Assembly: GCA_003168075.1 (NCBI GenBank)
Contig: PMTL01000098.1
Coordinates: forward strand, 1-56,868
From: Acidimicrobiaceae bacterium
Lineage (GTDB): Bacteria > Actinomycetota > Acidimicrobiia > Acidimicrobiales > RAAP-2
Direction of reading: 5' to 3'
Length of the DNA: 56,868 nt
Made by a program: the position numbers and the translations under genes. This document shows, piece after piece, positions 8,643 through 49,270 of this stretch; position 1 is the first letter of the stretch, and each line of letters begins with the position of its first letter. The notes under the pieces were generated by a model, which had not been told where the DNA came from, ran no database searches, and saw only the letters and a program-made list of their open reading frames with translations.

Positions 8643-8789
8643 ATCAACTCGCAGAAAGTCACTCCAGCACAGGCAGAATTATTTTGGAATTGAATGAGCA
8701 CTCGGTGATCCCTTTAAGGCCGTTGATTATTTTTGCCGGTGTCAAAAGCCACGTACACAGATTTCGAACTATTACGGAGATGAGCATTT

Positions 8790-9302: not shown

Positions 9303-9556
9303 GGCTCTCTCTTCTTGGGTTTTCGTAGTTCATTTCTTTATCGTCAAATCATCGCCAAGCCAAAATCTGAGCGTTGGCTCTTTTGGAAGCGTTGGCGCTT
9401 TCGGATCCAGGTACAGAATGGAGCGACCAAATCTGTGCCTGCAAGGCCGCGTCGTATTGCTGTCGAACCACGCGAGTCGCCGCCGACCGATGAAATGGGA
9501 GAGGACAAATGCATTCACAATGAATTTGTTCGATGAATGGTGCACCGTCATATGCA

Positions 9557-10753: not shown

Positions 10754-10873
10754 TATCTGTTCGCGTCCGTCCAGCAATGGGTACGCTCATTTCGTTGTCT
10801 CATGGGCACTCAGCGGTCGATATAGATTCAAGACGGGCGCACTCGTGAAGTTGGATCGTGACAAAGAATATGA

Positions 10874-11818: not shown

Positions 11819-12188
11819 CCGTGTCCTCCAAGGAATCGACGAATCCATTGATTTCTCGACCGATTTCGAGTCCGGGCGGTAGGCCGAGACACTGTTCGGC
11901 GAGATCGTGTCGACCAAGAGGAGTTACTTGTATATCCAAGTAGGGCCACAGCGGCAGGCTCACGATCGACTCGTGCAGGCGAGTTGCATCTGGAGCTGAC
12001 CAAATTGCACGGTTGGCGAAGCGTCCAGGAACTCGCCAGATGGCACGCAAGATGCCCTCAGCCGCTAGCTCGGTACCGCGAAGTCTTTCGGCAGCGATGA
12101 GCCGGTTTCGTTCGTCTTCGGTAATGTGAGACGGAAGCCGAACCTCAATTGCGAGTAGAAACTCCACGGTCATCTCCTCAAGTTTCAA
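11808..12188 (-). CDS. Muconolactone delta-isomerase-like protein
   Basis: MEFLLxIEVRLP...ERLRGTELAAEGILRAIWRVPGRFANRAIWSAPDATRLHESIVSLPLWPYLDIQVTPLGRH. Confidence 0.8.
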   Translation of the reverse strand: MKLEEMTVEFLLAIEVRLPSHITEDERNRLIAAERLRGTELAAEGILRAIWRVPGRFANRAIWSAPDATRLHESIVSLPLWPYLDIQVTPLGRHDLAEQCLGLPPGLEIGREINGFVDSLEDTDGD

Positions 12189-28214: not shown

Positions 28215-31200
28215 CTAGCGGTCGAAGCCAAAGTCCCGGGTCGGCGACTCGAAGAGTTCATCGTCCGACAGCAGATACGCAGGCTTCGCAGGCGCGTCCT
28301 CGACCACGGCGAGCGCGCTGGCTCGTCGCGCCGTACGCAGAACACGACCGCGCTGGACCTCTTGTTCGTGACTGATAAGTGCATTGTCGTGGATGGTGTC
28401 AGCGTTGTCAACTCCCCAGCGGTCAAAGTAAGCCGCGCCGGCGGCAACTTCTAGTACCCACTGCTCATAGAGCTCATCCGTCTCAGGAGCATCGCCGAAG
28501 TCCAACACCCAAGCGTCATCACGCTCGATAGCAATCATGGCGAGCTCGCGAGCTCGCCGTTCGATGGCGTCGGCACGATCGTTCAGTGCCTGCTTGACAT
28601 CGGGGTCAGCAATCCCGGTTGGCCGAGGGAAGATGCCAGCCACGAGCTCGCTCGCACTTGGGGCAGGGTAGCCCACTCCGGTGATGTAGCGATCGATGCG
28701 GTAGTGCAGGACACTGGCAATGTCGTCGGCGTCTTCGAATGGGCGACCTGCGAACAGCATCGGCAGTTCGGTTTGAATGTCGAATCCGCGACTTTCCGCG
28801 TCTCGTAGCTGCGCGAGCAGCGTTGCGTAAGCGGGTGACACTTTGGCCTGAACCAACTCGGTGGCGCTGAGCCCTGACTGGCTAAGCACGTCGTCCCAGC
28901 GTCCACCGTCGGCCAAGGTGATGATTGTGTCGTATTCGGCAACGAGTACCGCGATGGACTGGGTCTGGGACCGACGGATCATGTCGGTAGCGGACACGTC
29001 GGCCCCCTCGTGGCGCAGTACGCCGGCGAGGACTTCCAGAGCACTCGGAATCTCGCTCAGCCCGTCGTGGCCGGTTGACGGATCAGGATCGTAATGCGTG
29101 TCCACGTAGAGATGGTTGGACTCTGAGCCGCGTGTCAGGGCCACGTACAGTACTTCGCGAGTGGTCGTGGGACTGGCGAACGCGTGCGCGGTATCGATGG
29201 TGCGTCCCTGGGCGCGATGCGCGGTCGAGGCGTAGGCGAGTTCGACGTTATCGGCGACGTAACTGGCGGGCAAGAGGACCGTGCCGTGTCCGTTGACTCG
29301 AGTGACGGTTATAGAACCATTGGCGTGCGTCGCCGAAACGGTCCATACGTCACCGTTCTTGACCCAGCCCGTGTCCGTTGAAAGACGTCGGTTGTTCTCG
29401 CGCGTCACCACGTGATCATTGACGCCCGCAGTCATGGCACCCGCAACGTTGACCCCTTCCTCGATGACTTCGCCACTGGCGACACGCTGCGCGCGGGCGC
29501 GAGCATTGAGTTCGTTGACGGTCGCGGTGTCGCTGGCCAGCATCAACGAGTGCAAGCCACGATCCGTGTCGGTTTTCCACGCTGCGTAGAGCGCGTTGAG
29601 CATTTCGTCACGAGTTCCGTCAGTGATTCTTCCGCGCGTCGCGTAGGTGGCCAAAGCCGAACTAGAGCCGTTGCGGACCCCGAGGCTGGCCTGCTTCTCC
29701 CAGTTGGCCCTGAAGCGGCGAACGTTCGCGAGGGTCGCTGCACCGTCACCCCGATCACGCACGAGAGTGCGAAACATTCCCCCGGCGTCCACACTGGAGA
29801 GTTGTGCCCAATCACCGACGAGGACGACTTTGGCTCGCGCGTCGAGAGCGGCAGACATCAGTTCATCGAGCGCGAAAGTGGAAGCCAAACTGGCCTCGTC
29901 AACCACCACCAGTTGACCTGCGCGAAGACTCCAGCGAGTAAGTGTTTCCTCGTGTTGGCGAATGCTCGCGGCTAGCGCGGGACGACTTTTGAGCAGCCGG
30001 ACCTTTTCGCGCAGCTGTTCGAGTTCGCGAAAGCGCTGGCCGTGTTGGCGGTGTTCGTAGAGCCATTTGGCGAGATTGTCAGTGTCGATGCCCATGTCGT
30101 CGCCCAGGACTTCGGCGGCCGCCGCCGAGGGCGCGAGGCCGGTGACCGAACCGGCACCGTGCTCGACTTCCCAGGCGGCTCGCAGCCCCGCCATGGCCGT
30201 TGACTTACCCGTGCCCGCCGGCCCCACCAACACGTCGAGGACCCGGCCCGAGGTCGTGATCTTCTCGACGCAGAGGGCCTGGTCGTTTGAGAGCTTGAAG
30301 CTTCTTCCAAGTAGTCGTCGCTCGGTAACGCCCGCCACCGTGGCGCGGCTTACGACTGCCGAGTCGAGGCGCTGGCCCGCGTCGAGTAGACGTGCTTCGG
30401 CGGCAAGCAGCGTCGTCGAGGTGTAAAGCCAGTGATTGGTTCCCTGGAACTTAGAGGAGCCGTTTGCCCGAAGCAAGAAACGTGCCGTGTGATGCAGGTT
30501 GGGAGTGGTAATGACTAGTGCCTGGGCGACGGCCAGGTCGGTAGCGCGAGTAGCCGCGAGAATCCGCTCTGCGGGCTCGGTGAAACGAACACCCTGCACC
30601 TGGCGAAATACCTCCGCTTGAACATTGGCTCGAGAGAACGTCGGGCGCTTCGCGCTGACGACTTCGAGGGCCGCGTTAGCAATGTCGAGCAAGATCTCGT
30701 CCTCGAAATCTTCGCTGGTGAAAGCGCGCACGTCTCTGCCACCGAGCTCGTGCACCCACGCCATTGGTTCATCATCGAGGTACGGTGCGGCCCGAGCAGT
30801 CCACTCTTCGGTCAGGTCTCCGAGTCCCAGGCCCTGCTTGACCCGTCGGGTAGAGAGGGTGGCCGTCTGGCGGAGTTTGAGAACTTCCACGTCGGAAGGA
30901 GCGCGGTGGTGATCCACTTCGAACTGGTTGATGAGACGGTCCTTCGCATTAACGATGGCGGTCGTGCGCTGAGAGAACTCGTCCATAAGACGCGTCGACA
31001 CGCCGGCCACTTCCCACTTTGCGACCGAGCTCGAACGACGAGTGTGTGCCTCCCAGTCCCAGCCGAGCTCGGCCGTCAGAAAGTCGGAAAGCACGCCTTG
31101 GTGCATCTCCGAGAGCATCACAATTGACGCGAACAACTGTCGACTGTCGAGGGTGCGCCACACGCCGTCACTCTTGGCCCGGGCGCGGTTGAGAATGACC

Positions 31201-31751
31201 ACGTGGTCGTGCAGCTGGGGGTCGCCGTCCCTGGAATCGAAGTGGGTGAAGCTCGTCGCTATGACGCCAACAATGTCCTCTTCGACGCACCCCTGCTTTC
31301 CTGAGCGAGAGTGGAAGACCTCAGTCTCGGCGTAGGTGAGAACTTCCGCGATCGCTAACTCGTGACATAGGTAGATCGCTTCGCGGGTCTCTCGGTCGGC
31401 CAAAGCCCAAGCGGTGGAGACGCTCTTGGTGGGGCTGAACGTCAAGTCGAAACCACCCACGGCCTTCGTGCTCGGAACCCTTCCGAGCACCTCGCCGGTG
31501 ATCGGATCGGCGCAGTCCTGCAGTAACCTCTGGAGGTTTTCCGCCGTCACGGACCGCCCGACAGCTACACCAAGTCCGTTGTTGAGACCGACGAGTCCGG
31601 CGCCGAGAAAGACTCCCGGGGGAGTGCCAGTTTCGCTGTAGTAACGAACCAGGTCCGACTTGTCGGTGCCTTCGGGACCGTCGCCCACGGCGATTGATTT
31701 GAGCAGGTACTTGTAACCCGCTCCGATGCTGAGGCGTCGAATTGTCATCAT
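28215..31751 (-). CDS. MobF-family (TrwC/TraI-like) conjugative relaxase with C-terminal SF1 helicase
   Basis: FDLTFSPTKSVSTAWAL; THFDSRDGDPQLHDHVVILNR (3-His motif); DVLVGPAGTGKSTAM Walker A; VVVDEASLASTFALDEL; AYASTAHRAQGRTID; start placed at MMTIRRLSIG. Confidence 0.95.
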   Translation of the reverse strand: MMTIRRLSIGAGYKYLLKSIAVGDGPEGTDKSDLVRYYSETGTPPGVFLGAGLVGLNNGLGVAVGRSVTAENLQRLLQDCADPITGEVLGRVPSTKAVGGFDLTFSPTKSVSTAWALADRETREAIYLCHELAIAEVLTYAETEVFHSRSGKQGCVEEDIVGVIATSFTHFDSRDGDPQLHDHVVILNRARAKSDGVWRTLDSRQLFASIVMLSEMHQGVLSDFLTAELGWDWEAHTRRSSSVAKWEVAGVSTRLMDEFSQRTTAIVNAKDRLINQFEVDHHRAPSDVEVLKLRQTATLSTRRVKQGLGLGDLTEEWTARAAPYLDDEPMAWVHELGGRDVRAFTSEDFEDEILLDIANAALEVVSAKRPTFSRANVQAEVFRQVQGVRFTEPAERILAATRATDLAVAQALVITTPNLHHTARFLLRANGSSKFQGTNHWLYTSTTLLAAEARLLDAGQRLDSAVVSRATVAGVTERRLLGRSFKLSNDQALCVEKITTSGRVLDVLVGPAGTGKSTAMAGLRAAWEVEHGAGSVTGLAPSAAAAEVLGDDMGIDTDNLAKWLYEHRQHGQRFRELEQLREKVRLLKSRPALAASIRQHEETLTRWSLRAGQLVVVDEASLASTFALDELMSAALDARAKVVLVGDWAQLSSVDAGGMFRTLVRDRGDGAATLANVRRFRANWEKQASLGVRNGSSSALATYATRGRITDGTRDEMLNALYAAWKTDTDRGLHSLMLASDTATVNELNARARAQRVASGEVIEEGVNVAGAMTAGVNDHVVTRENNRRLSTDTGWVKNGDVWTVSATHANGSITVTRVNGHGTVLLPASYVADNVELAYASTAHRAQGRTIDTAHAFASPTTTREVLYVALTRGSESNHLYVDTHYDPDPSTGHDGLSEIPSALEVLAGVLRHEGADVSATDMIRRSQTQSIAVLVAEYDTIITLADGGRWDDVLSQSGLSATELVQAKVSPAYATLLAQLRDAESRGFDIQTELPMLFAGRPFEDADDIASVLHYRIDRYITGVGYPAPSASELVAGIFPRPTGIADPDVKQALNDRADAIERRARELAMIAIERDDAWVLDFGDAPETDELYEQWVLEVAAGAAYFDRWGVDNADTIHDNALISHEQEVQRGRVLRTARRASALAVVEDAPAKPAYLLSDDELFESPTRDFGFDR

Positions 31752-31796
31752 GTCGGAGGCGCCTGCATGCAACCCAACTGTCGCGATAATTCCCGT

Positions 31797-31815
31797 TCTG
31801 GCCTCAAGTGCCAGA
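31797..31815. promoter_or_regulatory. Possible oriT-associated inverted repeat (tctggc ctcaagt gccaga) upstream of relaxase
   Basis: 6-bp dyad followed by gtgtgagacaac; position upstream of MobF gene is where an oriT may lie. Confidence 0.2.
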
Positions 31816-32049
31816 CGTGTGAGACAACAAAACTGAGCCTGACGGAATGTGGAGAGAGCGCTAAATAAAGGGAAGCGCAGACGGGTTAGACAAACATAGG
31901 GCTGAAAGACATGAGAGAGGGGTGTGAAATCGGCACGGTGAGTAGGAGCATGGAAAGCGAACGCCGAAGCGAAAATGTAACACCCTGGTGATAAAAACAC
32001 GCCGGCGGGCGTAATCCCAATACCGCCAATGAGGTAAGGGAGAATCTAG

Positions 32050-33369
32050 ATGACTTTTCCATCAAGGAGGTCGACGACCTTCGAGGAGGCGTTGGAGTAC
32101 ATAGCGGCCGAACCGTCAATATGGATTCGATCCGCTGCCGTTCGCGATGATGCCGACTGTTGGCGCGTTCACCTTATGGAGTTGGCGAGCGGCGACACTC
32201 CGCCGAGCTGGGAAGAGAGATTCTGGGAATACCCCGACGTCGTTTTCGCTACCTTCAAGCTTTCCGGGGGTGAAACCTCAAAGTTCCTTCAGGAGAGAAA
32301 ACTGCAATTCGGGAATTATGTGATCGATTTGCCGCAGATGCAGACCACGGTGTCCTGGGAGCGACGACAGAGTCGATCCCAAGCGCCATATGAGACGCTC
32401 GACTGGCCGGTCGTGGAGGCGACGCTCTCAACGAACAGTGGCGTACTCAACCATCCTCAGGGGCATCAACTGTCGGCCGGGGACGCACCCTCGTTCGTGA
32501 CCTTCGATGCTGCGGCCGCGGCGTTCTTTGGATTTAAGTTGCAGCAAACTGGTGGACAACTTATTCAAGGCATCATGTTCCGGAGTCAGGATCTTCGCGG
32601 GCGCATTGACACTGTCCGTATCGGCATCGAAGCCATCGAAGTGACTGTTTATGGAAACAAACTTGACGAACTTGAAGTCGAAATCGCGGGAGACATCCCT
32701 GGTCCGTCGGAAGCCATTGGCGTTAAGGGCGACGAAAAAACTACGACAATGAATTTCATTCTCATCGACGGTTTGCCGTCAGGCGCGTGGGTACTGCTGC
32801 GAAAGGGAAGTGAGTGGATCGATCGAAGGTTTTTGACAAATTCCTACGTACGAGGAACTCAAGTCGGAGTCGAGGTCATCGTTGACGCAGGGACCAAACT
32901 CGAAGTCCTAGTGTCGAGTCGCGAACGCCAGTATGTCGAATTCAAACGACAACTCCCGACCGACAATCAATCAAAGCGAAAAATCATGAAGACGGTCTCG
33001 GCCTTTGCCAATGGTGGAGGTGGATCAATACTCCTCGGCGTGGACGACGACCGAAATCTCGTGGGCCTCGATCCAAAGAGCGTGGATCAACTTCGAGATC
33101 AAGTGACCCAGATGATAGGTTCCTGGATCGAACCATGGCCCCCCATGGATTTCGAGGTGTTGCCGGTTGTGGATAGCGAGAAAGTGGTCCTAGAAATTCA
33201 GGTCGGATCGGGTTCAACACTCTACGCTTGTGGCCAGCCCGGAGAGGTTCGTACTCCTTATGTTCGTCACCACGGTGTAACAGAGAAAGCGTCAGTCACG
33301 GAAATTGAAGCGATTATTCGCTCGCGAACGCTTCAGAGTCCAGATTTGTCCATCTTCGGGCGCGGCTAG
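32050..33369 (+). CDS. AlbA_2/Schlafen-like putative DNA/RNA-binding domain protein
   Basis: YVEFKRQLPTDNQSKRKIMKTVSAFANGGGGSILLGVDDDRNLVGL. Confidence 0.85.
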   Translation: MTFPSRRSTTFEEALEYIAAEPSIWIRSAAVRDDADCWRVHLMELASGDTPPSWEERFWEYPDVVFATFKLSGGETSKFLQERKLQFGNYVIDLPQMQTTVSWERRQSRSQAPYETLDWPVVEATLSTNSGVLNHPQGHQLSAGDAPSFVTFDAAAAAFFGFKLQQTGGQLIQGIMFRSQDLRGRIDTVRIGIEAIEVTVYGNKLDELEVEIAGDIPGPSEAIGVKGDEKTTTMNFILIDGLPSGAWVLLRKGSEWIDRRFLTNSYVRGTQVGVEVIVDAGTKLEVLVSSRERQYVEFKRQLPTDNQSKRKIMKTVSAFANGGGGSILLGVDDDRNLVGLDPKSVDQLRDQVTQMIGSWIEPWPPMDFEVLPVVDSEKVVLEIQVGSGSTLYACGQPGEVRTPYVRHHGVTEKASVTEIEAIIRSRTLQSPDLSIFGRG

Positions 33370-33431
33370 TTCAGCGATGAGCAAGCTGCGTTCGGGAGAA
33401 CTAAATTACGAAATTACTTTTGTTGGGTTCT

Positions 33432-34274
33432 ATGACTGACGCAAGACCTTACCCAAGTTCGGCACTCCGCGAGGCACAAGAAAAACGCGAGGCCGCCACC
33501 GGAGACGCTATGGCGGCGTCTTTGGGACCCGAGTTCGCGTCGACGCATCTCGGGGGCAGCGACGAAGTTGATTGCATCATTACGAAGAATGGTGCAACGT
33601 TCGCTGTCGTCGAGATTACCGCGGACGTGGATGAGGACTTCCAACGTGATTTGTCATTCTCATACGACAACCCGGATGAAGTAATACGAAATCTCCCGCG
33701 CGGCTACGGCGAGTGGGCGATCCAACTTGCGCCGGGAACCAGACTGAACGCGCTCGGCGATGCGTTCTTTCTTGATTTGATTCACGACCTGATGGAATCG
33801 GGTCGAACTGATATTGATCGACAGGAGATCTTGTTGGGTAACGATTCGAGGCTTCTTCACTATGTCGAAGCAGGAATGCAATTCGTGTTCAAGATGCCGA
33901 TGTCGCAAGAAGATCGCGCTCAAGTCATGTTTGGCCAACGGCCAGATTCAATAGTCATCTCGAGTGATCAGAATTTGTACGCTGACTATCTGGATGAGCT
34001 TCTCACTAAGAGGTCCATCAGAGGCAAGATCGATCGATTAATTGATCGAAGGGACGACTCGCCCGCGTGGTTCGCAATAGTTGTTGGCAGCGGTTCGCCG
34101 AATTCAGTCAGGTTTCGCACTCGCGGTGCCTCCTACGATCCCGGATTGCCGAACCGAGTGGTGACGATCCCGTCTGGACTCGAATACATCTGGATATTGA
34201 ACGAGGATCTAGCTCCACAATTCGTCGTCGATGCCGATGGCACGTTTCTCGCGATCGAAGAGACAGACACCTAG
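33432..34274 (+). CDS. Hypothetical protein, possible PD-(D/E)XK-like nuclease-fold remnant
   Basis: ORF within operon; EVDCIITKNGATFAVVEIT segment is only weakly nuclease-like. Confidence 0.6.
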   Translation: MTDARPYPSSALREAQEKREAATGDAMAASLGPEFASTHLGGSDEVDCIITKNGATFAVVEITADVDEDFQRDLSFSYDNPDEVIRNLPRGYGEWAIQLAPGTRLNALGDAFFLDLIHDLMESGRTDIDRQEILLGNDSRLLHYVEAGMQFVFKMPMSQEDRAQVMFGQRPDSIVISSDQNLYADYLDELLTKRSIRGKIDRLIDRRDDSPAWFAIVVGSGSPNSVRFRTRGASYDPGLPNRVVTIPSGLEYIWILNEDLAPQFVVDADGTFLAIEETDT

Positions 34275-34285
34275 TATCAACGGCG

Positions 34286-35740
34286 ATGGAAGTTGAAAAC
34301 TTTGTTGAGAAATATGGCGAGGCAGTGGAGGCCCACCGTGCCACGGTGCTCGTAGGCGCCGGTCTTTCTATGGGCGCCGGATACCCTTCATGGAACAATC
34401 TCCTCGAACCTCACCGAATCGAACTTGGCGTTCCGTCAGCCGTGATCGACTTACCGATGATGGCCCAATACGTAGAGAATAATGACGGTGGACGCGAGCG
34501 ATTGGTGCAAACCATTTGTGCGACGATTAGTTCGGTCACCCCGACTCCAACGGAGAGCCACATACTCTTGGGCCAACTGCCTCTCGATGAGATCTGGACC
34601 ACAAACTACGACCCTCTTGTAGAGATGGCTGGTAGTGGTTCAGTCGTCGTCGAGTTGGAAGATGACTTCCTTGAGGCTGGAGCCGCGACTCGACGTGTTT
34701 ACAAAATGCATGGGTCTATTAGGCCAGGTGACGCCCCTCCTGTTGGCGGCGTTGGCAATCTCGTTATATCCCAAGAGGACTTCGACATGTACGAGATTCG
34801 ACACCCGAGATTCTGGCGTCTACTCCAAGCACAGATTCTTACCAAGAGTTTTTTGTTTTTGGGATTCTCATTCAGTGACCCAAACTTCGAAGCTGCACTG
34901 CGACTGGTTCGAACAACCACTCGTGGTCGACTCATGAACCATTTTGCGGTTATGTTTTGTGAGCCAGGCAATGAGACGATCTTCGAGCTCAAGGCAGGCG
35001 AACTCCTGCGGTCAGGTGTCCAAGTTGTAACGACGGCGAGTTATGACGAAGTAAACGATATTCTGCGAAAGCTCGTCGCTAGAACGCGACCGAGCCGGTT
35101 GTTTGTCTCAGGCTCTCAGCCCGGACCACGATCTTCCTCAGATGATTCAGACGGTAGTGCAAGATACCCAGTTGCCGAATCAATTGGACCCGAACTTGAG
35201 GACATCGCAAAGACGCTCGGTAAACGACTCGCCCGTGCGGGCGTCAGCGTTACCACATCAAGTCTGCTCGGTGCAACGGTTGGGTATGCCCTGTTAGAGG
35301 AACTCGGCGAAGACTATGACGCCAATCGAATGATGCTGGTGCGACGCCAGAAAGATGAGCCTGTCGACATGCCCAACATTCGAAAGGGCGCCATCACATT
35401 CATTGGTGAAGACAGCGAGGAACTCCGAGATGAGGTATTCAGCCAGATTCGTTCGATCGTAATTCTTGGTGGAAGCGACGGGACCCATCGAGAGGTCGTT
35501 CGGGCCAAGGAACGAGGGATGGGCGTTGTACCGGTGGCATGTACCGGCGGAACAGCTTTCGAAGTTTGGGAGACGATGAGCGCCGACCTCAGTGGATTCG
35601 AGCTTGGCGCTGGACTAATTAATGCGACGACCTTTGCGGCCCTGAACTCGAACGTCACTGCAGACGCACTCAAAGCTGCGGAGGATCTGATACTGCAAGC
35701 GATGTATCTCCCGAACCCGACCAAACTCGATGAAAAGTGA
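34286..35740 (+). CDS. SIR2-like NADase domain + C-terminal SLOG/STALD-like domain (ThsA-like architecture)
   Basis: VLVGAGLSMGAGYPSW; EIWTTNYDPLVE; VYKMHGSI; C-terminal IRSIVILGGSDGTHREVVRAKERGMGVVPVACTGGTAFEVWE. Confidence 0.88.
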   Translation: MEVENFVEKYGEAVEAHRATVLVGAGLSMGAGYPSWNNLLEPHRIELGVPSAVIDLPMMAQYVENNDGGRERLVQTICATISSVTPTPTESHILLGQLPLDEIWTTNYDPLVEMAGSGSVVVELEDDFLEAGAATRRVYKMHGSIRPGDAPPVGGVGNLVISQEDFDMYEIRHPRFWRLLQAQILTKSFLFLGFSFSDPNFEAALRLVRTTTRGRLMNHFAVMFCEPGNETIFELKAGELLRSGVQVVTTASYDEVNDILRKLVARTRPSRLFVSGSQPGPRSSSDDSDGSARYPVAESIGPELEDIAKTLGKRLARAGVSVTTSSLLGATVGYALLEELGEDYDANRMMLVRRQKDEPVDMPNIRKGAITFIGEDSEELRDEVFSQIRSIVILGGSDGTHREVVRAKERGMGVVPVACTGGTAFEVWETMSADLSGFELGAGLINATTFAALNSNVTADALKAAEDLILQAMYLPNPTKLDEK

Positions 35741-36641
35741 ATCCTTCGCTGTCGCACCTGAGTTCTATCATCACGACGTGACCATCTCCGCCTCCGAGTT
35801 AGACGAGATCTCCACGTTGCTCATTGAAGGTCAGGGCTACCGGGACAACTGGCTGCCGCTGAAAGGCGACCGGCCGTCGGGATTCGATCATCCTGAAGGT
35901 AACGTTGACAATGAGCGTCTCACCTCACACTCGGCTGATGTGAATACGCTGGAAAAGGTTCGACGAGAGCTGAAGAAATTACTGTCCGACTCGAAAGTAC
36001 AAGTTGTACTCTCGACTTCAGTTGATTACCCGCATCGTCTACGAGATCTCGACGGACGTCCAGCTCTCTTGTTTGTTCGTGGAGACATGGGTGATTCGAA
36101 AACACCAACGCTCGCCGTTGTAGGAAGTCGGCGGGCCTCCGATGATGGAATCAAAGCAGCTCATCTTCTTGCGAGCAGCGCGGCGAGCGCGGGTTTCATG
36201 ATTGTTTCCGGATTGGCTGTCGGTATTGACTCGGCAAGTCATCGAGGAGCCCTTGATAGTGACGGACAGACAATTGCTGTGTTGGGAACTGGCCTAGGCA
36301 AGGTATACCCAATTGAAAATCGTGGGCTAGATCTTCGGATCGCGAGACGCGGCGCTCTGGTGACACAGTTTCCACCCATGCAATCTCCGACGAAAACGTC
36401 CTTTCCCTCTCGAAATGTGCTCATCGCCGGTCTCTCCGATGCCACCTTGGTCGTCGAAATGAGTGAACACAGTGGAACTCGAATTGAAGTGAATTGTGCG
36501 ATCGCGCAAGGTCGACGAGTGTTTTTGTGGGCGCCCATTCTAGGATCAGAGGAATGGGCGTGTCAGTTCGCCGAGCACCCACAGGTCACATTTGTTAAGA
36601 ACGAGGACGAACTCCTCGTCGAGCTTTCGGCAACGAATTGA
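35730..36641 (+). CDS. DprA/Smf-like SLOG (Rossmann) protein
   Basis: LAVVGSRRASDDG; IVSGLAVGIDSASHRGAL; IAVLGTGLGKVYPIENRGL; FPSRNVLIAGLSDATLVVEMSEHSGT; overlaps upstream stop by 11 bp. Confidence 0.93.
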   Translation: MKSESFAVAPEFYHHDVTISASELDEISTLLIEGQGYRDNWLPLKGDRPSGFDHPEGNVDNERLTSHSADVNTLEKVRRELKKLLSDSKVQVVLSTSVDYPHRLRDLDGRPALLFVRGDMGDSKTPTLAVVGSRRASDDGIKAAHLLASSAASAGFMIVSGLAVGIDSASHRGALDSDGQTIAVLGTGLGKVYPIENRGLDLRIARRGALVTQFPPMQSPTKTSFPSRNVLIAGLSDATLVVEMSEHSGTRIEVNCAIAQGRRVFLWAPILGSEEWACQFAEHPQVTFVKNEDELLVELSATN

Positions 36642-37375
36642 ACCACGGGCAACTGGTCGACATCACTGACGCAATCCTTAATGAACTGGTTCCAATGCCG
36701 CCAGACGCACCCGACGTGTGTCCTTTCTGTCGTTCCGGCAAGAGTCTGGACTTTGCGAACTGTTGGAGCTGCGGTCACGTAAGGGCTCAGGTAGCCTTCC
36801 CATGCCCAATCGTGATCCCAGTTAGTTTCTATCGAAAACCGTCATCCTTGCGAGAGCGAATGCACGACTACAAGGAGAGTCCGGACGCGTTGGTTCGACT
36901 TGCTCAATCACGAATTGTGGGCGGGATAATCGTGCGTTATTTCGAGGAGAATCGCGGGCGTCTCGCCGAAACATTTGGAATGTGGGATGCGGTGGTTCCT
37001 GTTCCCTCGACGAAGAATCCAGCACCATCGGCACTTACTCGCGCAATCAATGAAGATTACTCGGAGTTTGTGAATCCCGTTGAGTTGTTAATCCGTGGCA
37101 CGGGCTCGATGACTTTCAACAAAGCATCTGAATCTGGTTTCCAAGTCGCTGCCGATGTTCGCGGAGCCAAGGTCTTACTCGTTGACGATACTTTTACGAC
37201 AGGCGCGCGGGTCAATTCCGCTGCTCACGCTCTCCAGGCAGCCGGCGCAGAGATTGTTGCGGGTCTGGTGGTCGCTAGGAAGATAAATCCTCCCGAGTTC
37301 AATACGAGTGATCTCTGGGAACGACAGACGGCGATTCCCTTCGATTTTACCGACGCGCCGTGGTGGGCAAATTAG
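36638..37375 (+). CDS. ComF-like phosphoribosyltransferase with N-terminal zinc ribbon
   Basis: CPFCRSGKSLDFANCWSCG; VLLVDDTFTTGARVNSAAHAL; TTG start overlapping the dprA-like stop (TTGA). Confidence 0.9.
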   Translation: MNHGQLVDITDAILNELVPMPPDAPDVCPFCRSGKSLDFANCWSCGHVRAQVAFPCPIVIPVSFYRKPSSLRERMHDYKESPDALVRLAQSRIVGGIIVRYFEENRGRLAETFGMWDAVVPVPSTKNPAPSALTRAINEDYSEFVNPVELLIRGTGSMTFNKASESGFQVAADVRGAKVLLVDDTFTTGARVNSAAHALQAAGAEIVAGLVVARKINPPEFNTSDLWERQTAIPFDFTDAPWWAN

Positions 37376-37597
37376 CTGTGTGAAATGGTCTGAGGCATAG
37401 CGACGGAGCCCTGAGACAAGTGGCGTCATGCGCTCTAAGCGAGTCGTCCAATCAAAGGGGCCTCTAATGCGTGGTGACAGAACGCTTGTTGCTGATGGTT
37501 CCCCTTTCTCTTGCACGACGTTCAATGTAAACAACCGTGCAAGCAACCCAAAAAGGGCTTGGAGTTTTAAATCGCTCCATAACCCTTCGTGTTACTG

Positions 37598-37635
37598 GTG
37601 GGCCGCCCGGGTCTCGATCCCGGCACCTTGGGATT
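37598..37635 (-). repeat. att core copy 0: tRNA-Lys 3'-fragment-like 38-bp core (gtgggccgcccgggtctcgatcccggcaccttgggatt)
   Basis: Identical to copy A core; sequence diverges immediately after gggatt. Confidence 0.9.
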
Positions 37636-37738
37636 CGAGCCAGATAGTGCACGCGCGTCCGTCCTTGTCAGCGTGTCCTGGTCAGAGGCTTCCGTGGATC
37701 CGCCAACGTCCGCTGATGTCCTTTCGAGTCTGCTTCCC

Positions 37739-37758
37739 TGGCTACATGATTGGCTACA
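37739..37758 (+). repeat. Candidate integrase arm-type site pair tggctaca-N4-tggctaca
   Basis: Same 12-bp-spaced pair recurs at 45171-45190 at the other end of the element. Confidence 0.6.
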
Positions 37759-38082
37759 CAACTTCGGAAGTGGGGTGGCGAACGTTGTTCAAATTTGTGG
37801 TTCTGATGACCTCAAAATTGAGGTCCGTGTCGAGGGGCCAACTCGTTGAGACGGCAACGACGAAGGCCGCCCGTACGATTCGTATCTAGAACTCACTCGG
37901 GGGTCTCGGGGACGCCGCCCGCACGCGGAGCGCGCGCCGGCGGCACCGGGACCGCGAGGGAACTGGGGCAATCGTTCGGTGCGACGGCATCCGCGATCGC
38001 CGAGCTGAGAATCCGACGTGAGGTTTCACGGCGGAGACCCGAAGCAACAGATCTGCCACCAGTCACTGGCGACTCGAGCCTG

Positions 38083-38985
38083 TCAAGCCGTAGGGGTGTC
38101 CTCGCGGGGCTTGACTTGTACTCGAATTTGAGTGACTTCGTCTTGCTCGTTGAGGAGAGCGACCACTAAGGCATCAAGCTCACTCAACTGGGTCCGTCCG
38201 TGAGCAAATGGTTGTTCGAGCCAGTTGCGTACCTCGAGGTCAAGAGGTGCTTGATCAAAGTTGAATTCGCCGGCTATTTCAACGTTGGTGATGTGGTGGT
38301 AGGCGGTGGGGTTCTCGTGACGCAAGTACAGTTCAAGCGATCCGTAATTGGCACTGAGGGTGAAACTCTCAATGGCATCGCGCTCGGGATGACTGTGTGC
38401 TCCTACTAATAGTCTTCGGATCGCTTCTGGATCCTGAACAATCATGTCGCAAAGATCCCTTGCAGTGCCTCGGAACTCTCCATCTTTTGAGCACAGAACA
38501 AAGTCTTGCTCCAACAACACTGTTCCCGATCCTCCTTCGGGAAGTTCTACAGTTGCCACCACGCGCTGGGGGCCTATGTACACCATGTCTACGAAGAGGT
38601 TCTTAATCTCAGGGCCGTCGTTTCCCTGAACGACTTGAGGAACTATCAGGAATGTATCGTTGGTTTGATTAATGAGTGCTTGAGCAGCCTCGGTGGCTCC
38701 GTTCCACGGCACCAAATACAGACGGTCGGTGCCAAGATTTTTGTGCTTGGCGATCATCTGTTCAGCCCAAGTGATATCTACCGGACCCGCCTGCGTAGTT
38801 ACCTCGTAACACTGACGCCAAGTTTCTCCCTCGTTCTGGAATTCTGCGACCACATCGACTTCGCGCAAAATACCTAATAGAGAGTCTCGAATCATCTTCG
38901 ACTCCGTTACGTCGCAGCCTGCCCCACTGAGCAACTGACGAAGCATAAGGATGATCTTCTGGCGCTCATTGGATCGTGGCGGCAC
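38083..38985 (-). CDS. Predicted restriction-endonuclease-like-fold protein (unknown function)
   Basis: GILREVDVVAEFQNEGETWRQCYEVTTQAGPVDITWAEQMIAKHKNLGTDRLYLVPW. Confidence 0.55.
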   Translation of the reverse strand: MPPRSNERQKIILMLRQLLSGAGCDVTESKMIRDSLLGILREVDVVAEFQNEGETWRQCYEVTTQAGPVDITWAEQMIAKHKNLGTDRLYLVPWNGATEAAQALINQTNDTFLIVPQVVQGNDGPEIKNLFVDMVYIGPQRVVATVELPEGGSGTVLLEQDFVLCSKDGEFRGTARDLCDMIVQDPEAIRRLLVGAHSHPERDAIESFTLSANYGSLELYLRHENPTAYHHITNVEIAGEFNFDQAPLDLEVRNWLEQPFAHGRTQLSELDALVVALLNEQDEVTQIRVQVKPREDTPTA

Positions 38986-39121
38986 CGCCTCAGTATGACA
39001 GACGCGGCAATTCCGGCACTCGAAGATTGTTGGTGTGAGAGAGCCGACGTCGACAATCTCCGATTGGAGGATTCAATTGTGGACTGGCGCTTGAGGCATC
39101 GGAATGTGAAATGCTGTCACC

Positions 39122-39835
39122 ATGCGGCCACGTAATGGTCTTGTCGATTGGTTGTGCGAGCACGTGCGAGGCGTCAACACACTCCTGGTTTGGGTCGGGT
39201 TGTTCGTCGGATTTACAGCGATTAAAGACCCGGTGGCCGGAGCAAATGGCTGGGGGCCGAGTTGGATTGGCCCGGTCATCATCATTGGGAGCATCGGCGG
39301 AGCTTGGGCGATTTGGCGCTTCACTTTTCGCATTGAATCACGGACTACAGGTGACACACACCGTCGCCCACCTCGGAGAAGGGGCGGGTGGATGGCAGTC
39401 GAGTGGGGGCGCGCTCGCATCGGGTTCACCGTGACTGAAAGGGAGATGCTGACGGGATCGATCCAAGTTTTTATGGAGCGAGACAGCGAATGGGAGCCCC
39501 ATCGCTCAATCTATTTGCAGACCAGCTACATGCCGGGAATCATTCACGAAGCTCAACTCGCGGGGATGCTCAAAAGAGGCGAGACGCCCGAAGTGGTGGA
39601 GATCGACATTCCGGTGGCTGAGCTCGGAACTTACGTCGACCACGTACTCAAGCAGATGGGCTGGCGCCGCGTTTCGAGGTTAGACAGTTGGCTGGCGACT
39701 GAGCCAGCCTTTCCGGGGGAATCTCCCAATCGGGCGGCGGAATGCGAAGTGATACGTGGCAGAAACGAGCGCCAGTACCTTAAGCGCATGGACGCTGCTC
39801 GAAAAGAACATCGACTTCGAGAGGGGCTACGCTAG
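39122..39835 (+). CDS. Hypothetical protein with two N-terminal TM segments
   Basis: TLLVWVGLFVGFTAI and WIGPVIIIGSIGGAWAIW hydrophobic segments. Confidence 0.55.
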   Translation: MRPRNGLVDWLCEHVRGVNTLLVWVGLFVGFTAIKDPVAGANGWGPSWIGPVIIIGSIGGAWAIWRFTFRIESRTTGDTHRRPPRRRGGWMAVEWGRARIGFTVTEREMLTGSIQVFMERDSEWEPHRSIYLQTSYMPGIIHEAQLAGMLKRGETPEVVEIDIPVAELGTYVDHVLKQMGWRRVSRLDSWLATEPAFPGESPNRAAECEVIRGRNERQYLKRMDAARKEHRLREGLR

Positions 39836-39860
39836 CTCTCTCGCCCGGGCCGAGACAAAG

Positions 39861-41729
39861 TCATTCTGAAATATTGAATCCAGCGAGAATGTCTTTGCGC
39901 AGATCCTGAAACATAATTGGAAGCGCTGATGTCGCGATTCGCTCGGCAATTAATTTGCCATCCTTAACCTTGTTGTAGCCAGTCCCGTGTGACTTGTACA
40001 ACATTGTTAGAAGTCTCTCACCAGGGACCAGGATCTTCCATTCGTTGTCCCACCGAGATACGGTGTCCTCCTGACACTGCTTCCAGGTTGCTTCAACTTG
40101 TTCTTGATCTGGGATCGACACACTCAGCTTGTGCAAGATGGCAACCATGTTCGCAACATTCATTTCTCCAATGTCCTTGGGCCGACTGATGTTAAAACTC
40201 TTTCTGTCGATGACTTTATGAATCAAGTGTCGAGTTCGGAGCCATACGACTTCATTCTGGAGTTGATCCGCCATAACACGGAGTTGACTTTCGATTTCCA
40301 CCGCTGTCAAATGCTCGACCCTAATCTTCTTTGACATCGCGAAACAGATGCTTTCCGGCGAATCGAGAAAGTAATTCTCGATTTCGCGGCGTTTGAGTTG
40401 TAGCCAACGGCTTCGTGTGTTTTCGTTGGAGTCACGCTCGTCCCTGTCAGCCAAAACGAGAATGCTTTCATCATCGAGTTCCGGCAAAGATCGCAACGCC
40501 TCTTCGAAATTTGCGAGATTTTTCGCACCCTCAGCTTGGACGATCGCAATGTCGTGCCGGATCAAGTCAATGAGCAATAGACGCGAAAGAATCAACTTGT
40601 CAGATGCGCCCTCCACTATCAGCGCATACCTGGCTTGTAGAAGGCCAAAAGCGCCGACGCCAATAATGTCAAGTGCGTCTCTAAGACTGCCCGACACATC
40701 TAGCACTTCAGATGAAATGGAAGTACGCGTGACAAGATGGATTCGGTCACCTTCATCGAGTGCCTCGAGCACATATGGCGAATGTGTCGTCAGTATCAAT
40801 TTGCGATCTGCGAGAAGGTGACGGAGAGTTGCAGTCAAGTTTCGTTGAGCCTGTGGGTGAAGCCCGGACTCGGGCTCCTCTATGATGACAACGCAATCTC
40901 TGGGCACCGACGCGATCGCGGTGGTCGCCGCCGCCGCTTGCCCTACACCGCCGCCTACCTGATTCAATCGAAGTTGAAGGTCATTTGAATCGGTCAATAC
41001 AAGATTGGCTTGTGTATCCGCTAGTCGAACACCTAATGATCCAATAGTCGGGAATATGTCTTGCAAAGATTCAATGATCGATCGAGTTATTCTGGGCATT
41101 GAGCCCTGCAAACTGTGAAATACATTCGTTAAATTTTGTGCGTCTGGAGAAAGTCGAGAGTCTTCGCGGACCATTGAATTGTCTTGCCACAATCTCGGAT
41201 GTGCGAAGTAAAAAATTTCCGGCATTTTCCATTGACCCTTGATTGCGTCGTAGAATCGCTTCGAAATCATTGGAGTCGAAGTTGTTGATTCGTTAGGCTG
41301 AATCTTTAGCATTCCATTATTGGATTGAAAGTCGGGCGTTAGAGGCCACCAAAAACGACCTGTTGGATGTTCTTTCAGGTGTGGTGAGTTCTGATCTTCC
41401 GGACGGGAATCGAAAACGGCGAATTCCGTCGGATTCCCGGTGGAGCCAACTTCTATTCCAAAGGAGCAAACCTCGGAATCTAGGAAGGGGTTTCGAGTTG
41501 TTCGCTGCTGACTGTATTCGCTCTTAATATCCCACTCGAGATAGTGCCGCTCTTCTGATTGAACATATTCTTCAGGTTTTAACGTGGAAACCAGTGATTT
41601 CACGAGGAATGTCTTGCCTACATCATTCTTCCCGACAATCGTGACAATGCCGTTGCCTGACAAGTCGATCGTGGCATCACGAAGAATGCCCCGGTTCACG
41701 ACTCGAAATGATGACAACTCTTGAGTCAA
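39861..41729 (-). CDS. OLD-family ATP-dependent endonuclease (AAA ATPase + TOPRIM)
   Basis: IVTIVGKNDVGKTFLVKSL Walker A; VVIIEEPESGLHPQAQRNL; TTHSPYVLEAL; ALIVEGASDKLILSRLL ... ILVLADRDERD TOPRIM residues. Confidence 0.9.
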   Translation of the reverse strand: MTQELSSFRVVNRGILRDATIDLSGNGIVTIVGKNDVGKTFLVKSLVSTLKPEEYVQSEERHYLEWDIKSEYSQQRTTRNPFLDSEVCSFGIEVGSTGNPTEFAVFDSRPEDQNSPHLKEHPTGRFWWPLTPDFQSNNGMLKIQPNESTTSTPMISKRFYDAIKGQWKMPEIFYFAHPRLWQDNSMVREDSRLSPDAQNLTNVFHSLQGSMPRITRSIIESLQDIFPTIGSLGVRLADTQANLVLTDSNDLQLRLNQVGGGVGQAAAATTAIASVPRDCVVIIEEPESGLHPQAQRNLTATLRHLLADRKLILTTHSPYVLEALDEGDRIHLVTRTSISSEVLDVSGSLRDALDIIGVGAFGLLQARYALIVEGASDKLILSRLLLIDLIRHDIAIVQAEGAKNLANFEEALRSLPELDDESILVLADRDERDSNENTRSRWLQLKRREIENYFLDSPESICFAMSKKIRVEHLTAVEIESQLRVMADQLQNEVVWLRTRHLIHKVIDRKSFNISRPKDIGEMNVANMVAILHKLSVSIPDQEQVEATWKQCQEDTVSRWDNEWKILVPGERLLTMLYKSHGTGYNKVKDGKLIAERIATSALPIMFQDLRKDILAGFNISE

Positions 41730-41910
41730 ACGCCCCCCCAGCTAATGCTCGGCAATATTCGGTGTGCCGTGTCCCTGAAATGCTAGTAGTGGCGTATTAC
41801 ACGACCTGGAGGAGGCAACATCGTTGGAAGAACCCGGGAGATGTATTGGTGAACGGTATCCGGTCGTCGACAATCAACGTCAGGGGTGGCCCGAGTGGGG
41901 GGCGAGACTT

Positions 41911-42381
41911 CTAGCTCTGCTCGAGCAGCGCGTCCACGAGTGACTCAATCAATTGAACCTTCGCTTCAGTCAATCTTTCGAGCTTGTCGTAGAGGCTGCG
42001 GTACCGCCAGGGTTCTATGTCGGAATGGGGCTGAGTAAATCCCGGTATTGAAATCAAGTTAAGGGGGTCGATTGAAACTGCTCTTAGTACTTTCGAAAGG
42101 CTTTCGGGCCGTGGGTTCGGCAGAATGAGCTTTCCACTGACCCACTTTCCCCCGGCCTCGAGCTGGCGCCAAAATGAATCGGATATTCGGGCTCGTTGCG
42201 CAGCTTCACGTTTACTCAGTTGCAGTTTTTTCCGAGCGTCAAAGAGCGCTTCACCGATTGATCGCCATGGTTCCCCATAGTCCCTTGCTAGTGGATACAT
42301 GCTGTAATACCTGTCAAGTTCGGCCTGATCAACTGCGGGCTTCCACTCGGCTTCTAAGGCGTTTCGTCGAGGCATAAACAC
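41911..42381 (-). CDS. XRE-type HTH transcriptional regulator
   Basis: IGEALFDARKKLQLSKREAAQRARISDSFWRQLEAGGKW. Confidence 0.75.
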   Translation of the reverse strand: MFMPRRNALEAEWKPAVDQAELDRYYSMYPLARDYGEPWRSIGEALFDARKKLQLSKREAAQRARISDSFWRQLEAGGKWVSGKLILPNPRPESLSKVLRAVSIDPLNLISIPGFTQPHSDIEPWRYRSLYDKLERLTEAKVQLIESLVDALLEQS

Positions 42382-42397
42382 ATACTGTCAGTATTTT

Positions 42398-42517
42398 GTC
42401 GAGAGCGCAATAGTTTGCTGCGCTCTTGACACGCGCTGTTCTGCGCTCTATCCTAGTCACGATGTGGTTTTCCCTCAGCGCAAGAGTACCCGATAGCGCG
42501 CTTTTCTGCGCTCTATC
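42398..42517. promoter_or_regulatory. Operator/iteron-like repeat array with tgcgctct boxes between regulator and rep
   Basis: 12-bp imperfect IR gtcgagagcgca/tgcgctcttgac (42398-42430) plus direct repeats ttctgcgctctatc at 42439-42452 and 42504-42517. Confidence 0.7.
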
Positions 42518-42538
42518 GTCTCAGCGACGGGGCGGAAA

Positions 42539-43468
42539 ATGAATATCGAGTGTCAATTTCACGATTCGGGCAAACACCGATGGATTTACGGGGGCGCGGC
42601 CAAGGAGCGTCACGAAAAGTGTGATCGACCTCATTGGATGGTCTGTCTCTGTTCCGAGAAAGTACTGGCCAGGTGCAATCGGACTGCGCGAACGGTCTGT
42701 GCACCGTGCTCGGAGAGCTACCGACGGCGGGTTGGCCGAATCTTCGAATCTGGCTGGACTGATCATCCGAATGACCGAATACTGCTCGTTACGATCACGG
42801 CACCAGGTGACTCCGAACACTTCTTGCCGAGCGGCGCGCGATGTCCGTGTACGGGTCCAGACGGAATAGATGTTGCTGTTTATAACGCGACGGCGTCCAA
42901 GCGGTTCAACAGATGGGTACAAGATCTGCGAAGAAGTTACGGGCGCCTTCAATACGCGAGAGCGGCCGAGATTCAAGACGGCAAACGTCGCGCTGACGGC
43001 GTTGGTCGTGGCGCACTGCACTTCCACGTTCTGGTGCGGGCTGATCGCCCTGACCTGATTCTTCGTGACTATCGAGTTTTCGACCCGCACTGCTCGATGC
43101 GCCTGCTGGTAGAAGAGCACGGTTTTGGGCATGAGCTTGACGTAAAAGTCGTGGCGGTTACGAAGTCGTGGTACTGCGCCAAGTACGTGAGCAAGTCCGC
43201 TGACGCGCGATATTCGATGCCTTGGCTCGATCTCAGCACAGGTGAACTCGTCAATGGCTATGGGCGATATCGAACGTGGACTGCGTCACGAGGGTGGGGT
43301 CTAACTATGAAGGTGCTTCGTCAATTCCAGAAGGCTTGGGCCGAATGCGAGTGGCATTTGGACGACCAGACAATGAAGTGGCTGGCGGCGCAAGCCGCCA
43401 ACGCCGCCGAAGGCGGCGCTCTTGATCTCAATACGTTGAGTTACACAAGGGTGAGGGAGAAGACTTAG
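42539..43468 (+). CDS. AICE-type replication initiator (RepSA-like HUH) protein
   Basis: GRGALHFHVLVRA (HUH) and SWYCAKYVSKSAD (catalytic Tyr region), Cys-rich N-terminus. Confidence 0.88.
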   Translation: MNIECQFHDSGKHRWIYGGAAKERHEKCDRPHWMVCLCSEKVLARCNRTARTVCAPCSESYRRRVGRIFESGWTDHPNDRILLVTITAPGDSEHFLPSGARCPCTGPDGIDVAVYNATASKRFNRWVQDLRRSYGRLQYARAAEIQDGKRRADGVGRGALHFHVLVRADRPDLILRDYRVFDPHCSMRLLVEEHGFGHELDVKVVAVTKSWYCAKYVSKSADARYSMPWLDLSTGELVNGYGRYRTWTASRGWGLTMKVLRQFQKAWAECEWHLDDQTMKWLAAQAANAAEGGALDLNTLSYTRVREKT

Positions 43469-43759
43469 ATGTCGAAGCGAAACCGGTCGAAAAGGCGCGG
43501 CAACAAAAGTGAGTCATCAGTTCGAATTACGTATTTGGAAAGTGGGAGAGTAAAGGACTTTTTTAAACCCGTGCACTTCGACACTCATAGCATTCTCGCA
43601 GCGCATGGGATCGACCATTGTCACGGAGTGGAGATTTTTCACAAGGATGGGACGGCGTCCTGTTCTCTTGGATCGGATTGTTACGGTTCAGAAACAGTCC
43701 ACATTGACGGTCAGTCTTGCGGACTCACGACAGTCTGTGAACGGTGTCGGGCAAAATGA
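43469..43759 (+). CDS. Small Cys/His-rich hypothetical protein
   Basis: ORF directly abutting rep stop; HCHGVEIFHKDG...CERCRAK. Confidence 0.45.
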   Translation: MSKRNRSKRRGNKSESSVRITYLESGRVKDFFKPVHFDTHSILAAHGIDHCHGVEIFHKDGTASCSLGSDCYGSETVHIDGQSCGLTTVCERCRAK

Positions 43760-43944
43760 GTACCGAGGAGTCTCAATTGCTATTTACCGTCAAAGAGGTC
43801 GCGTCGATCTTGCAGATCAGCCGCACCACGGTCTACGAACTGATCTACGCGGGCGTACTGCTATCGGTCAAGATAGGCGCCTGCCGCCGAATTCGGCGCA
43901 GCGACCTTGAGGACTACGTTCAAGGTCTGGTGGCGAACTCGTGA
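43756..43944 (+). CDS. xis: Excisionase-like (HTH_17/MerR-like) protein
   Basis: LLFTVKEVASILQISRTTVYELIYAGVLLSVKIGACRRIRRSDLEDYV. Confidence 0.93.
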   Translation: MSTEESQLLFTVKEVASILQISRTTVYELIYAGVLLSVKIGACRRIRRSDLEDYVQGLVANS

Positions 43945-43993
43945 TGATGTCGGTCTCAGGTCGCGGATTTAGGTGTGAGGCGTAGGGGGAGAG

Positions 43994-45319
43994 ATGGGCA
44001 AACGACGGGGCAAAGGCGAAGGCTCGATTTACCAGCGTGATGACGGACTGTGGATTGGCGCGGTCGATCTCGGCTGGAGCGCTGGTAAGCGAGCACGGAA
44101 GGTGGTGAACGGTCGGACTCGCGCGGAGGTGGCGAAGCGAATGCAAGAAGTGCAGCCAACCGTGGCCCAAGGTCTCACGCTCGCGCCGGATCGTCTCACC
44201 GTTGGGACCTATTTGAGCGATTGGATCTCGAAGCGAGTTCCGGGCAGCGTGAGCCTTAGGACTGAGGCTCTGTACCTCCGGGCGGTGAACGTCTACATAA
44301 ATCCTTCGATCGGAAAAGTGAGGCTGACCAAACTCACGCCGTCCGACGTGAGTCGGATGCTCGGCGACTTGGAAGCCAAGGGCTATTCGCCCTCGACTCG
44401 CCGGATGGCTCGCGCGACTCTTCGTCGGGCGATTCGTTTTGCCGAGCAGGATGGCCTGCTCTCTCGTAACGTGGCCGCCATCGCGGAGGGTCCAAAACTG
44501 GATCATCGCGAAGGGCGTTCGCTGACTCCCGAGCAGGCGCAGACCTTCCTCGAAGCGGTGATTGATAATCGTTTGGAAGCGGCCTACGTCCTCACCCTGG
44601 CGCTGGGGCTTCGCCGGGGTGAGATCCTGGGACTCTCGTGGGAGGACGTCGTACATGCCGAAAATGCAGTCGTCTTGACGGTTCGTCGTCAGTTGGTCCG
44701 TGACAAGTCTGGCGTGCATCTGAGCGACCTCAAGACGGCTGGGAGCAGGCGAAAGCTGCATCTTTCAGCGCCCCTCGTCGAGGTACTTGACCGTCATCGA
44801 ATGCGCCAAGAGGCGGAGGAGCTAGTCCGTGGCAAGCGGTGGCACAACGAGTGGGATCTCATCTTCACGTCGACGATCGGCACGCCGCTCGATCCTGAGC
44901 AGTTCGGCAAGACCGTGCCGAGGATCTGTGAGAGCGCTGGCCTGGGTCACTGGTCGATCCACGAGCTTCGTCACTCGTGCGCGTCGCTCATGATCGCGAT
45001 GGAAGTTCCACTGGAAATTGTGTCTGAACAGATGGGCCACGCGTCGATTCGAGTCACGAAGGACGTCTACGGCCACCTCATGCCGAAGGCGCGAGCCATG
45101 GCTGCCGAAGCTATGCGTTCAGTGCTCTTTGACGAAATCATTCCTACACGTCCGCTCGCGTTTGTCGGTTTGGCTACACAAATGGCTACATCCGATGTAG
45201 CCAATAGTTATTCCGAGCCTGTGAATAGGTCATTCGTGGGCCGCCCGGGTCTCGATCCCGGCACCTTGGGATTAAAAGGAACTTGCGAATGGTTGCGTGG
45301 TGTCGGTCTGGTCGCGTAG
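43994..45319 (+). CDS. int: Tyrosine-type site-specific recombinase/integrase
   Basis: ALGLRRGEILGLSWEDV; HELRHSCASLMI; MGHASIRVTKDVYGHL; 3' end runs through att core. Confidence 0.96.
   Translation: MGKRRGKGEGSIYQRDDGLWIGAVDLGWSAGKRARKVVNGRTRAEVAKRMQEVQPTVAQGLTLAPDRLTVGTYLSDWISKRVPGSVSLRTEALYLRAVNVYINPSIGKVRLTKLTPSDVSRMLGDLEAKGYSPSTRRMARATLRRAIRFAEQDGLLSRNVAAIAEGPKLDHREGRSLTPEQAQTFLEAVIDNRLEAAYVLTLALGLRRGEILGLSWEDVVHAENAVVLTVRRQLVRDKSGVHLSDLKTAGSRRKLHLSAPLVEVLDRHRMRQEAEELVRGKRWHNEWDLIFTSTIGTPLDPEQFGKTVPRICESAGLGHWSIHELRHSCASLMIAMEVPLEIVSEQMGHASIRVTKDVYGHLMPKARAMAAEAMRSVLFDEIIPTRPLAFVGLATQMATSDVANSYSEPVNRSFVGRPGLDPGTLGLKGTCEWLRGVGLVA
45171..45203 (+). repeat. Arm-type site cluster tggctaca-N4-tggctaca plus inverted tgtagcca
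   Basis: Read directly; matches pair at 37739. Confidence 0.6.
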
Positions 45320-46281: not shown

Positions 46282-46466
46282 GCCTCCATTGTAGAGGGGT
46301 GTTACCTGCGATGATGCTGATCGCCATCGGCCCAAATGCATCGGTGTAGCGCCCTTACGCCGTTGACGTTCGGATGTCACCGCGTCGCTCAGTCGGCGTA
46401 CGTTACGCCGGCGAATTCATGGGTATTGTCGAACATCTGCGATGGGGGAGGAGCGTCGGGACCGGC

Positions 46467-49102: not shown

Positions 49103-49270
49103 GTGGGCCGCCCGGGTCTCGATCCCGGCACCTTGGGATTAAAAGGAACTTGCGAACTGTTGTCCCGTGTCGGTCTCGTCGCGTGAGTCGATTGTTTTCA
49201 AGAAAACGTGTTGTCTCATGTCGGTCTGGTTGCGTGGTGTTGCAGGAATATGAGGCCTAAAATGAGGCCT
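49103..49270 (-). repeat. 168-bp core+arm unit, copy B
   Basis: Same length and order as copy A. Confidence 0.93.

Follow-up and report, generated by a model that had tools for sequence, protein, structure and literature searches.

The window analysed here, 56,868 nucleotides of contig PMTL01000098.1 from the metagenome-assembled genome (MAG) of an Acidimicrobiaceae bacterium, carries a run of five genes on its plus strand, the last three of which encode an effector of the ThsA family, a DprA-like protein and a ComF-type phosphoribosyltransferase (PRTase). Gene 1 (32050–33369, 439 residues) matches PF04326 SLFN_AlbA_2 at 2.9e-16 over residues 292–410, the last third of the protein. Gene 2 (33432–34274, 280 residues) found no family match in Pfam, PADLOC and further family scans. 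Gene 3 (34286–35740, 484 residues) encodes the SIR2–STALD effector (SIR2_2, 8.4e-24; STALD, 7.6e-9), gene 4 (35730–36641, 303 residues) a DprA-like protein of the ShosA-like type (PF02481 DNA_processg_A, 2.6e-58) and gene 5 (36638–37375, 245 residues) the PRTase (PF00156 Pribosyltran, 4.8e-7; TIGR00201 comF, 4e-8). These three are the core of the module described below. Read directly from the sequence, genes 1 and 2 lie 62 bp apart and genes 2 and 3 lie 11 bp apart; genes 3 and 4 overlap by 11 bp, and genes 4 and 5 are joined at TTGA, the TTG start of the one standing on the TGA stop of the other. A preliminary description of the window had listed the same five reading frames, junction lengths and TTGA overlap, all of which are borne out, and had spoken of a five-gene operon. 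That phrase describes the layout in this genome; it does not denote a unit.

If five genes lie together in one genome, which of them keep together elsewhere? To address this question we sought relatives with the SIR2 protein as the sole query, so that the search was blind to the neighbouring genes. Five further members of its clade were found, one in Ornithinimicrobium, two on Mycolicibacterium plasmids and two in genomes of the Ornithinimicrobium order. The first, locus L002 of Ornithinimicrobium laminariae, came from the genome-collection search; its SIR2–STALD (7995–9407), DprA (9420–10346) and PRTase (10274–11044) genes encode proteins 40, 32 and 34% identical to their counterparts in the window. 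The plasmids, from M. vanbaalenii and M. chubuense, were the top two matches in the plasmid collection and show the same order of SIR2, DprA and PRTase. When 396 genomes of the Ornithinimicrobium order were searched with a profile, two further full-length matches emerged, at 506 and 385 bits; the next match scored 87. One of these two genomes, G530, again has SIR2, DprA and PRTase. In the other, G529, the SIR2 gene overlaps by 23 bp with a PRTase gene that is convergent with it; the open reading frame at this locus in which a stop had been flagged is nonetheless intact, at 476 residues.

A PRTase therefore adjoins the SIR2–STALD gene at all five further loci (six of six, counting the window), and DprA is present at four of the five (five of six). 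PRTases of this type are rare: among 397 sampled genomes of the phylum, 8 exceed 80 bits and the others reach at most 55. Since the type is so rare in these genomes, five adjacent PRTases at five loci are not due to chance. The AlbA_2 gene and gene 2 were seen at none of the five. We conclude, with high confidence, that genes 3–5 (34286–37375) form a conserved module. The co-occurrence once proposed for all five families holds for the last three and fails for the first two, while the coupling of a ThsA-like effector to a ShosTA-like DprA/PRTase pair without ThsB, first noticed in this window, proves to be real and repeated from locus to locus.

How closely does the effector resemble ThsA of the Thoeris system? 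PADLOC assigns gene 3 to ThsA at 1.6e-65, and the best match in the Protein Data Bank is ThsA, entry 6lhx. The SIR2 motifs are intact, as previously stated, reading GAGLS, WTTNYD and KMHG. The STALD profile match agrees with the SLOG/STALD-like C-terminus proposed at the outset, an assignment that rests on sequence profiles, the AlphaFold model from a two-sequence alignment being unusable (mean pLDDT, the predicted local distance difference test, 38.5). We mapped residues onto BcThsA numbering and checked the numbers by script. N107 and H142 of the window protein correspond to N112 and H152 of BcThsA, both of which are required for NAD+ cleavage (PMC7272460), and this catalytic pair is kept in all six module proteins.

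The putative sensor domain is another matter. In ThsA the STALD residues R371, K388 and E403 coordinate 3'cADPR, a cyclic ADP-ribose (cADPR) isomer (PMC10022894). Like F357, all three are kept in 11 of 11 TIR-linked proteins. The module proteins keep E403 in six of six, whereas K388 is missing from every one of them, its loop being shortened. These two columns lie between conserved glycines and are more trustworthy than that of R371, which depends on the alignment. The module clade also has conserved stretches of its own, one FRxK-like, one RxGTAI-like and, in most members, a GGxxTxxE loop, which seems similar to PGGxGTxxE, a motif of LOG phosphoribohydrolases. The loss of K388 and the rebuilt pocket would fit a ligand other than the cADPR isomers. 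In a tree with 12 TIR-linked ThsA proteins, the six module SIR2–STALD proteins separate as a single clade, with support of 100/100.

Signalling in type I Thoeris depends on TIR enzymes that make cADPR isomers. One or more TIR genes adjoin ThsA in 11 of 11 sampled relatives that are more distant, all on plasmids. No TIR gene adjoins SIR2–STALD at any of the six module loci; DprA and PRTase genes stand in its place. Nor was there a match to ThsB_TIR or TIR_2 in the window MAG, in genomes G452, G529 and G530, or on the M. chubuense plasmid, so that the absence of a ThsB partner, reported from the operon, extends to its own MAG. Like type I Thoeris, the module has a ThsA-family effector of matching architecture, with its catalytic Asn and His and its STALD/SLOG domain, but it has no neighbouring ThsB, lacks the full set of R371, K388 and E403 and falls in a separate clade. 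With no TIR and a changed pocket, it is not a member of Thoeris.

What are the two genes that follow the effector? PADLOC assigns gene 4 to ShosA at 1.4e-64 and gene 5 to ShosT at 3.7e-8. As a control, the ShosA model was found to match housekeeping DprA as well, at about 1e-50. We therefore rejected this match as proof of identity and, since the model is unspecific, relied on trees and domain content. Pair-type DprAs stand apart from housekeeping DprA at 100/99, and the module DprAs group together at 85/85. A winged helix was detected in housekeeping DprA and in none of the module DprAs. No other dprA exists in the MAG, and none in 36 genomes of its genus; in Ornithinimicrobium the module copy is accompanied by two more dprA genes, and G530 likewise has a housekeeping dprA. 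The earlier likening of the gene 4 and gene 5 pairing to ShosTA is supported. The genus itself appears to lack a housekeeping dprA (0 of 36 relatives), which in other families of the order is present in 23 of 24 genomes sampled.

The PRTase owes its ComF-like look to an N-terminal CxxC..CxxC arrangement, and it carries the phosphoribosyl pyrophosphate (PRPP) loop VLLVDDTFTTG. This loop and both CxxC pairs are kept in all six module PRTases. The ShosT match to the window protein covers residues 172–225 of 245, the region of the PRPP loop; the G530 PRTase matches over residues 117–236 (2.7e-8) and that of G529 gives no match. The module PRTases group weakly in a tree (77/70), and long branches make this tree unsure.

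A DprA/PRTase pair, the P2-hotspot system, protects against T7 and lambda (PMC9122126). In ShosTA the DprA-like protein is the antitoxin and the PRTase the toxin. With this pair and ShosTA the module shares tandem DprA-like and PRTase genes, the DprA being of the pair type and not housekeeping. It differs in that a SIR2–STALD effector has been added and is co-inherited in six of six members of the SIR2 clade, so that it is no two-gene system free of a further effector, and in that the window PRTase fits the ShosT model around the PRPP loop alone. PsyrTA and RqlHI consist of a RecQ-like helicase with a PRTase domain and a DprA-like partner. The pairing is again shared, but the module has no helicase, and its match is limited to the PRPP-loop end of PsyrT (3.3e-5). 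On a Streptomyces plasmid (L039, 4888–8442) a DprA/PRTase pair is followed by a 555-residue protein that matches nothing in Pfam or PADLOC and may be an alternative partner.

At three of the six loci the module is touched by a gene matching PF24387, archaeo-eukaryotic primase (AEP) 1D-like. It is convergent with the PRTase gene in L002 (11018–11800; 1.9e-31), stands just before SIR2 in L080 (8564–9316; 5.9e-42) and just after the PRTase gene in L038, the M. chubuense locus (11226–11930; 9.9e-48). The L002 and L080 proteins are 35% identical. The gene was not found at the window locus, at L037 or at L079, and no PADLOC 2023 model matches its product.

How might these parts work together? We are dealing with a real, repeated three-gene module that, judging from its parts, is Thoeris-like at its effector end. 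It is mobile and probably directed against phages, and its SIR2–STALD protein is likely to be an NADase effector. The reading we favour, with a probability of about one half, is that of a Thoeris-like abortive-infection system acting through this NADase, in which a ShosTA-like DprA/PRTase pair would replace the TIR enzyme and the ligand would probably be a different one. The presence of a ThsA-type effector in a conserved mobile set with DprA and PRTase, and with no TIR, suggests that another signal activates it. That the signal is a nucleotide supplied by the PRTase we propose tentatively, at somewhat less than even odds; the suggestion in the preliminary description, that the PRTase/DprA pair might make or sense a nucleotide controlling the NADase, is still a hypothesis. 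More tentative still is the full scheme, a TIR-free Thoeris-like branch in which DprA and the ComF-type PRTase, joined at some loci by an AEP 1D-like primase, would make a PRPP-derived messenger other than a cADPR isomer, to be read by the rebuilt STALD domain. In the reading we favour, the DprA-like protein would restrain the PRTase until it detects a nucleotide or single-stranded DNA that is damaged or comes from a phage. The PRTase would then make (or remove) a PRPP-derived nucleotide, STALD would read this through the pocket containing GGxxTxxE, and the activated SIR2 domain would destroy NAD+, leading to abortive infection.

Several observations weigh against this Thoeris-like reading. 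The position of R371 is occupied by R in three of the module proteins (window, L002 and L080) and by V in the other three. No module DprA lies within 16 kb of the G529 SIR2 gene, and that genome has a single other DprA, of housekeeping length; DprA is perhaps dispensable or replaceable. The AEP-like gene, present at three of the six, might instead encode the signal enzyme. A TIR protein acting in trans is conceivable, the window MAG being 84.7% complete, and on the M. vanbaalenii plasmid a single TIR gene lies at a distance of about 50 kb; save for that gene, no such partner was found in the six genomes or plasmids searched, and we set the idea aside. Lastly, DprA/PRTase pairs occur without SIR2–STALD at L039, L112, L114, L116 and L117, so the pair can act alone, and PRTases occur with neither SIR2–STALD nor DprA at L111, L113 and L115. 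The SIR2 clade is thus more dependent on the PRTase than the PRTase is on it.

The chief rival to a diffusible signal is control by a protein complex. DprA and PRTase would bind and restrain SIR2–STALD as a two-part antitoxin or sensor, and phage DNA or some disturbance would free the NADase. The overlapping genes suggest matched amounts of protein, the STALD domain is without the known signal-binding lysine, and DprA homologues serve as antitoxins in ShosTA, SyrTA and RqlHI (PMC9122126). A pure scaffold, however, would have no need of the PRPP loop kept in all six PRTases; the pocket retains E403 together with residues conserved in the clade; and G529, if functional, works without a module DprA. 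We consider such a complex less likely than the reading we favour. Could the module instead be two independent systems, an orphan ThsA-like effector beside a stand-alone ShosTA-like pair in a defence island? Pairs that occur alone are in keeping with this, as is the setting, which is mobile and rich in defence genes, among them those for an OLD-like ATPase and a TOTE primase–helicase. But the adjacency recurs at six of six distant loci, with identities of 27–40%, the SIR2 and DprA trees agree, the reading frames overlap and the effector has no TIR to use, all of which makes independence quite improbable.

Two further proposals fare worse. Genes 1 and 2, which share strand and short gaps with the module in this genome, might be its sensor or nuclease parts, all five genes being one system; this is very improbable, and we rejected the five-gene unit because both genes are missing from the five other loci and relatives of each occur without the module. 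The family names DprA and ComF would also match competence or DNA-processing genes with a chance SIR2 neighbour. Given DprA trees that place the module proteins, devoid of the winged helix, outside the housekeeping clade, additional dprA copies in Ornithinimicrobium and G530, and none elsewhere in the MAG or in the 36 genomes of its genus, we rejected a housekeeping dprA and comF as scarcely credible.

In the literature we found no description of SIR2–STALD with DprA and PRTase; earlier mention in Burroughs 2015 (SLOG networks) or in a subscription paper is possible. A ThsA-type effector with a changed pocket, co-inherited with a DprA/PRTase pair and no TIR, suggests that SIR2 NADases may be gated by a second route. 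Because its likely readout, the loss of NAD+, is easily measured, the module also offers a handle on the chemistry of PRTase/DprA pairs such as ShosTA.

What, then, of genes 1 and 2? Streptomyces plasmids that lack the module carry full-length homologues of the AlbA_2 protein, 30% identical. A paralogue of gene 2, 45% identical and without SIR2, lies elsewhere in its own genome (L126, 3705–4574, contig C91), beside ABC-transporter and sigma-factor-like genes; a distant relative, also without SIR2, occurs in one genome of the same genus. Gene 2 shows no similarity to the AEP-like protein, nor to the genes that follow the AlbA_2 homologues in Streptomyces. The two genes, which had been put forward as parts of the system, are neighbours that lie outside the conserved module and are possibly co-transcribed here. 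The contig of the gene 2 paralogue also ends in the attachment-site (att)-like repeat described below, and gene 2 may travel with att-bounded cassettes.

The module moves with mobile elements: other loci, too, adjoin recombinases or sit on MOBF plasmids. Profile scans of viral contigs with SIR2, PRTase and gene 2 gave no relative and phage records gave weak matches only; there is thus no evident sign that phages carry the module. In the window, a TrwC/MobF-type relaxase–helicase gene (28215–32000, minus strand; TrwC 2.5e-68, AAA_30 1.1e-55) diverges from the operon. Beyond the operon, 216 bp past its end, lies an att-like repeat (37591–37635). Read on the minus strand, it looks like the 3' half of a tRNA-Lys; a search with ARAGORN detected no complete tRNA anywhere in the window. 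Further copies lie at 45229–45273 and near 49115, 53739 and 55669, making five in 18 kb against 0.12 expected, and the genome holds 23 against 0 in a reversed control. Integrative elements stacked at the ends of tRNA-Lys probably left these copies as att scars that divide the region into cassettes. The segment between the first two copies contains an OLD-like AAA_15/TOPRIM ATPase (39861–41729), a RepSA-type (pSAM2-type) Rep (42539–43468) and a tyrosine integrase (43994–45319). This segment, 37591–45273, has the appearance of a small integrative element of the pSAM2 type with another defence gene. Also between two att-like copies lies a TOTE conflict-system primase with a ResIII-type helicase (46374–48827; AEP-TOTE 4.6e-74).

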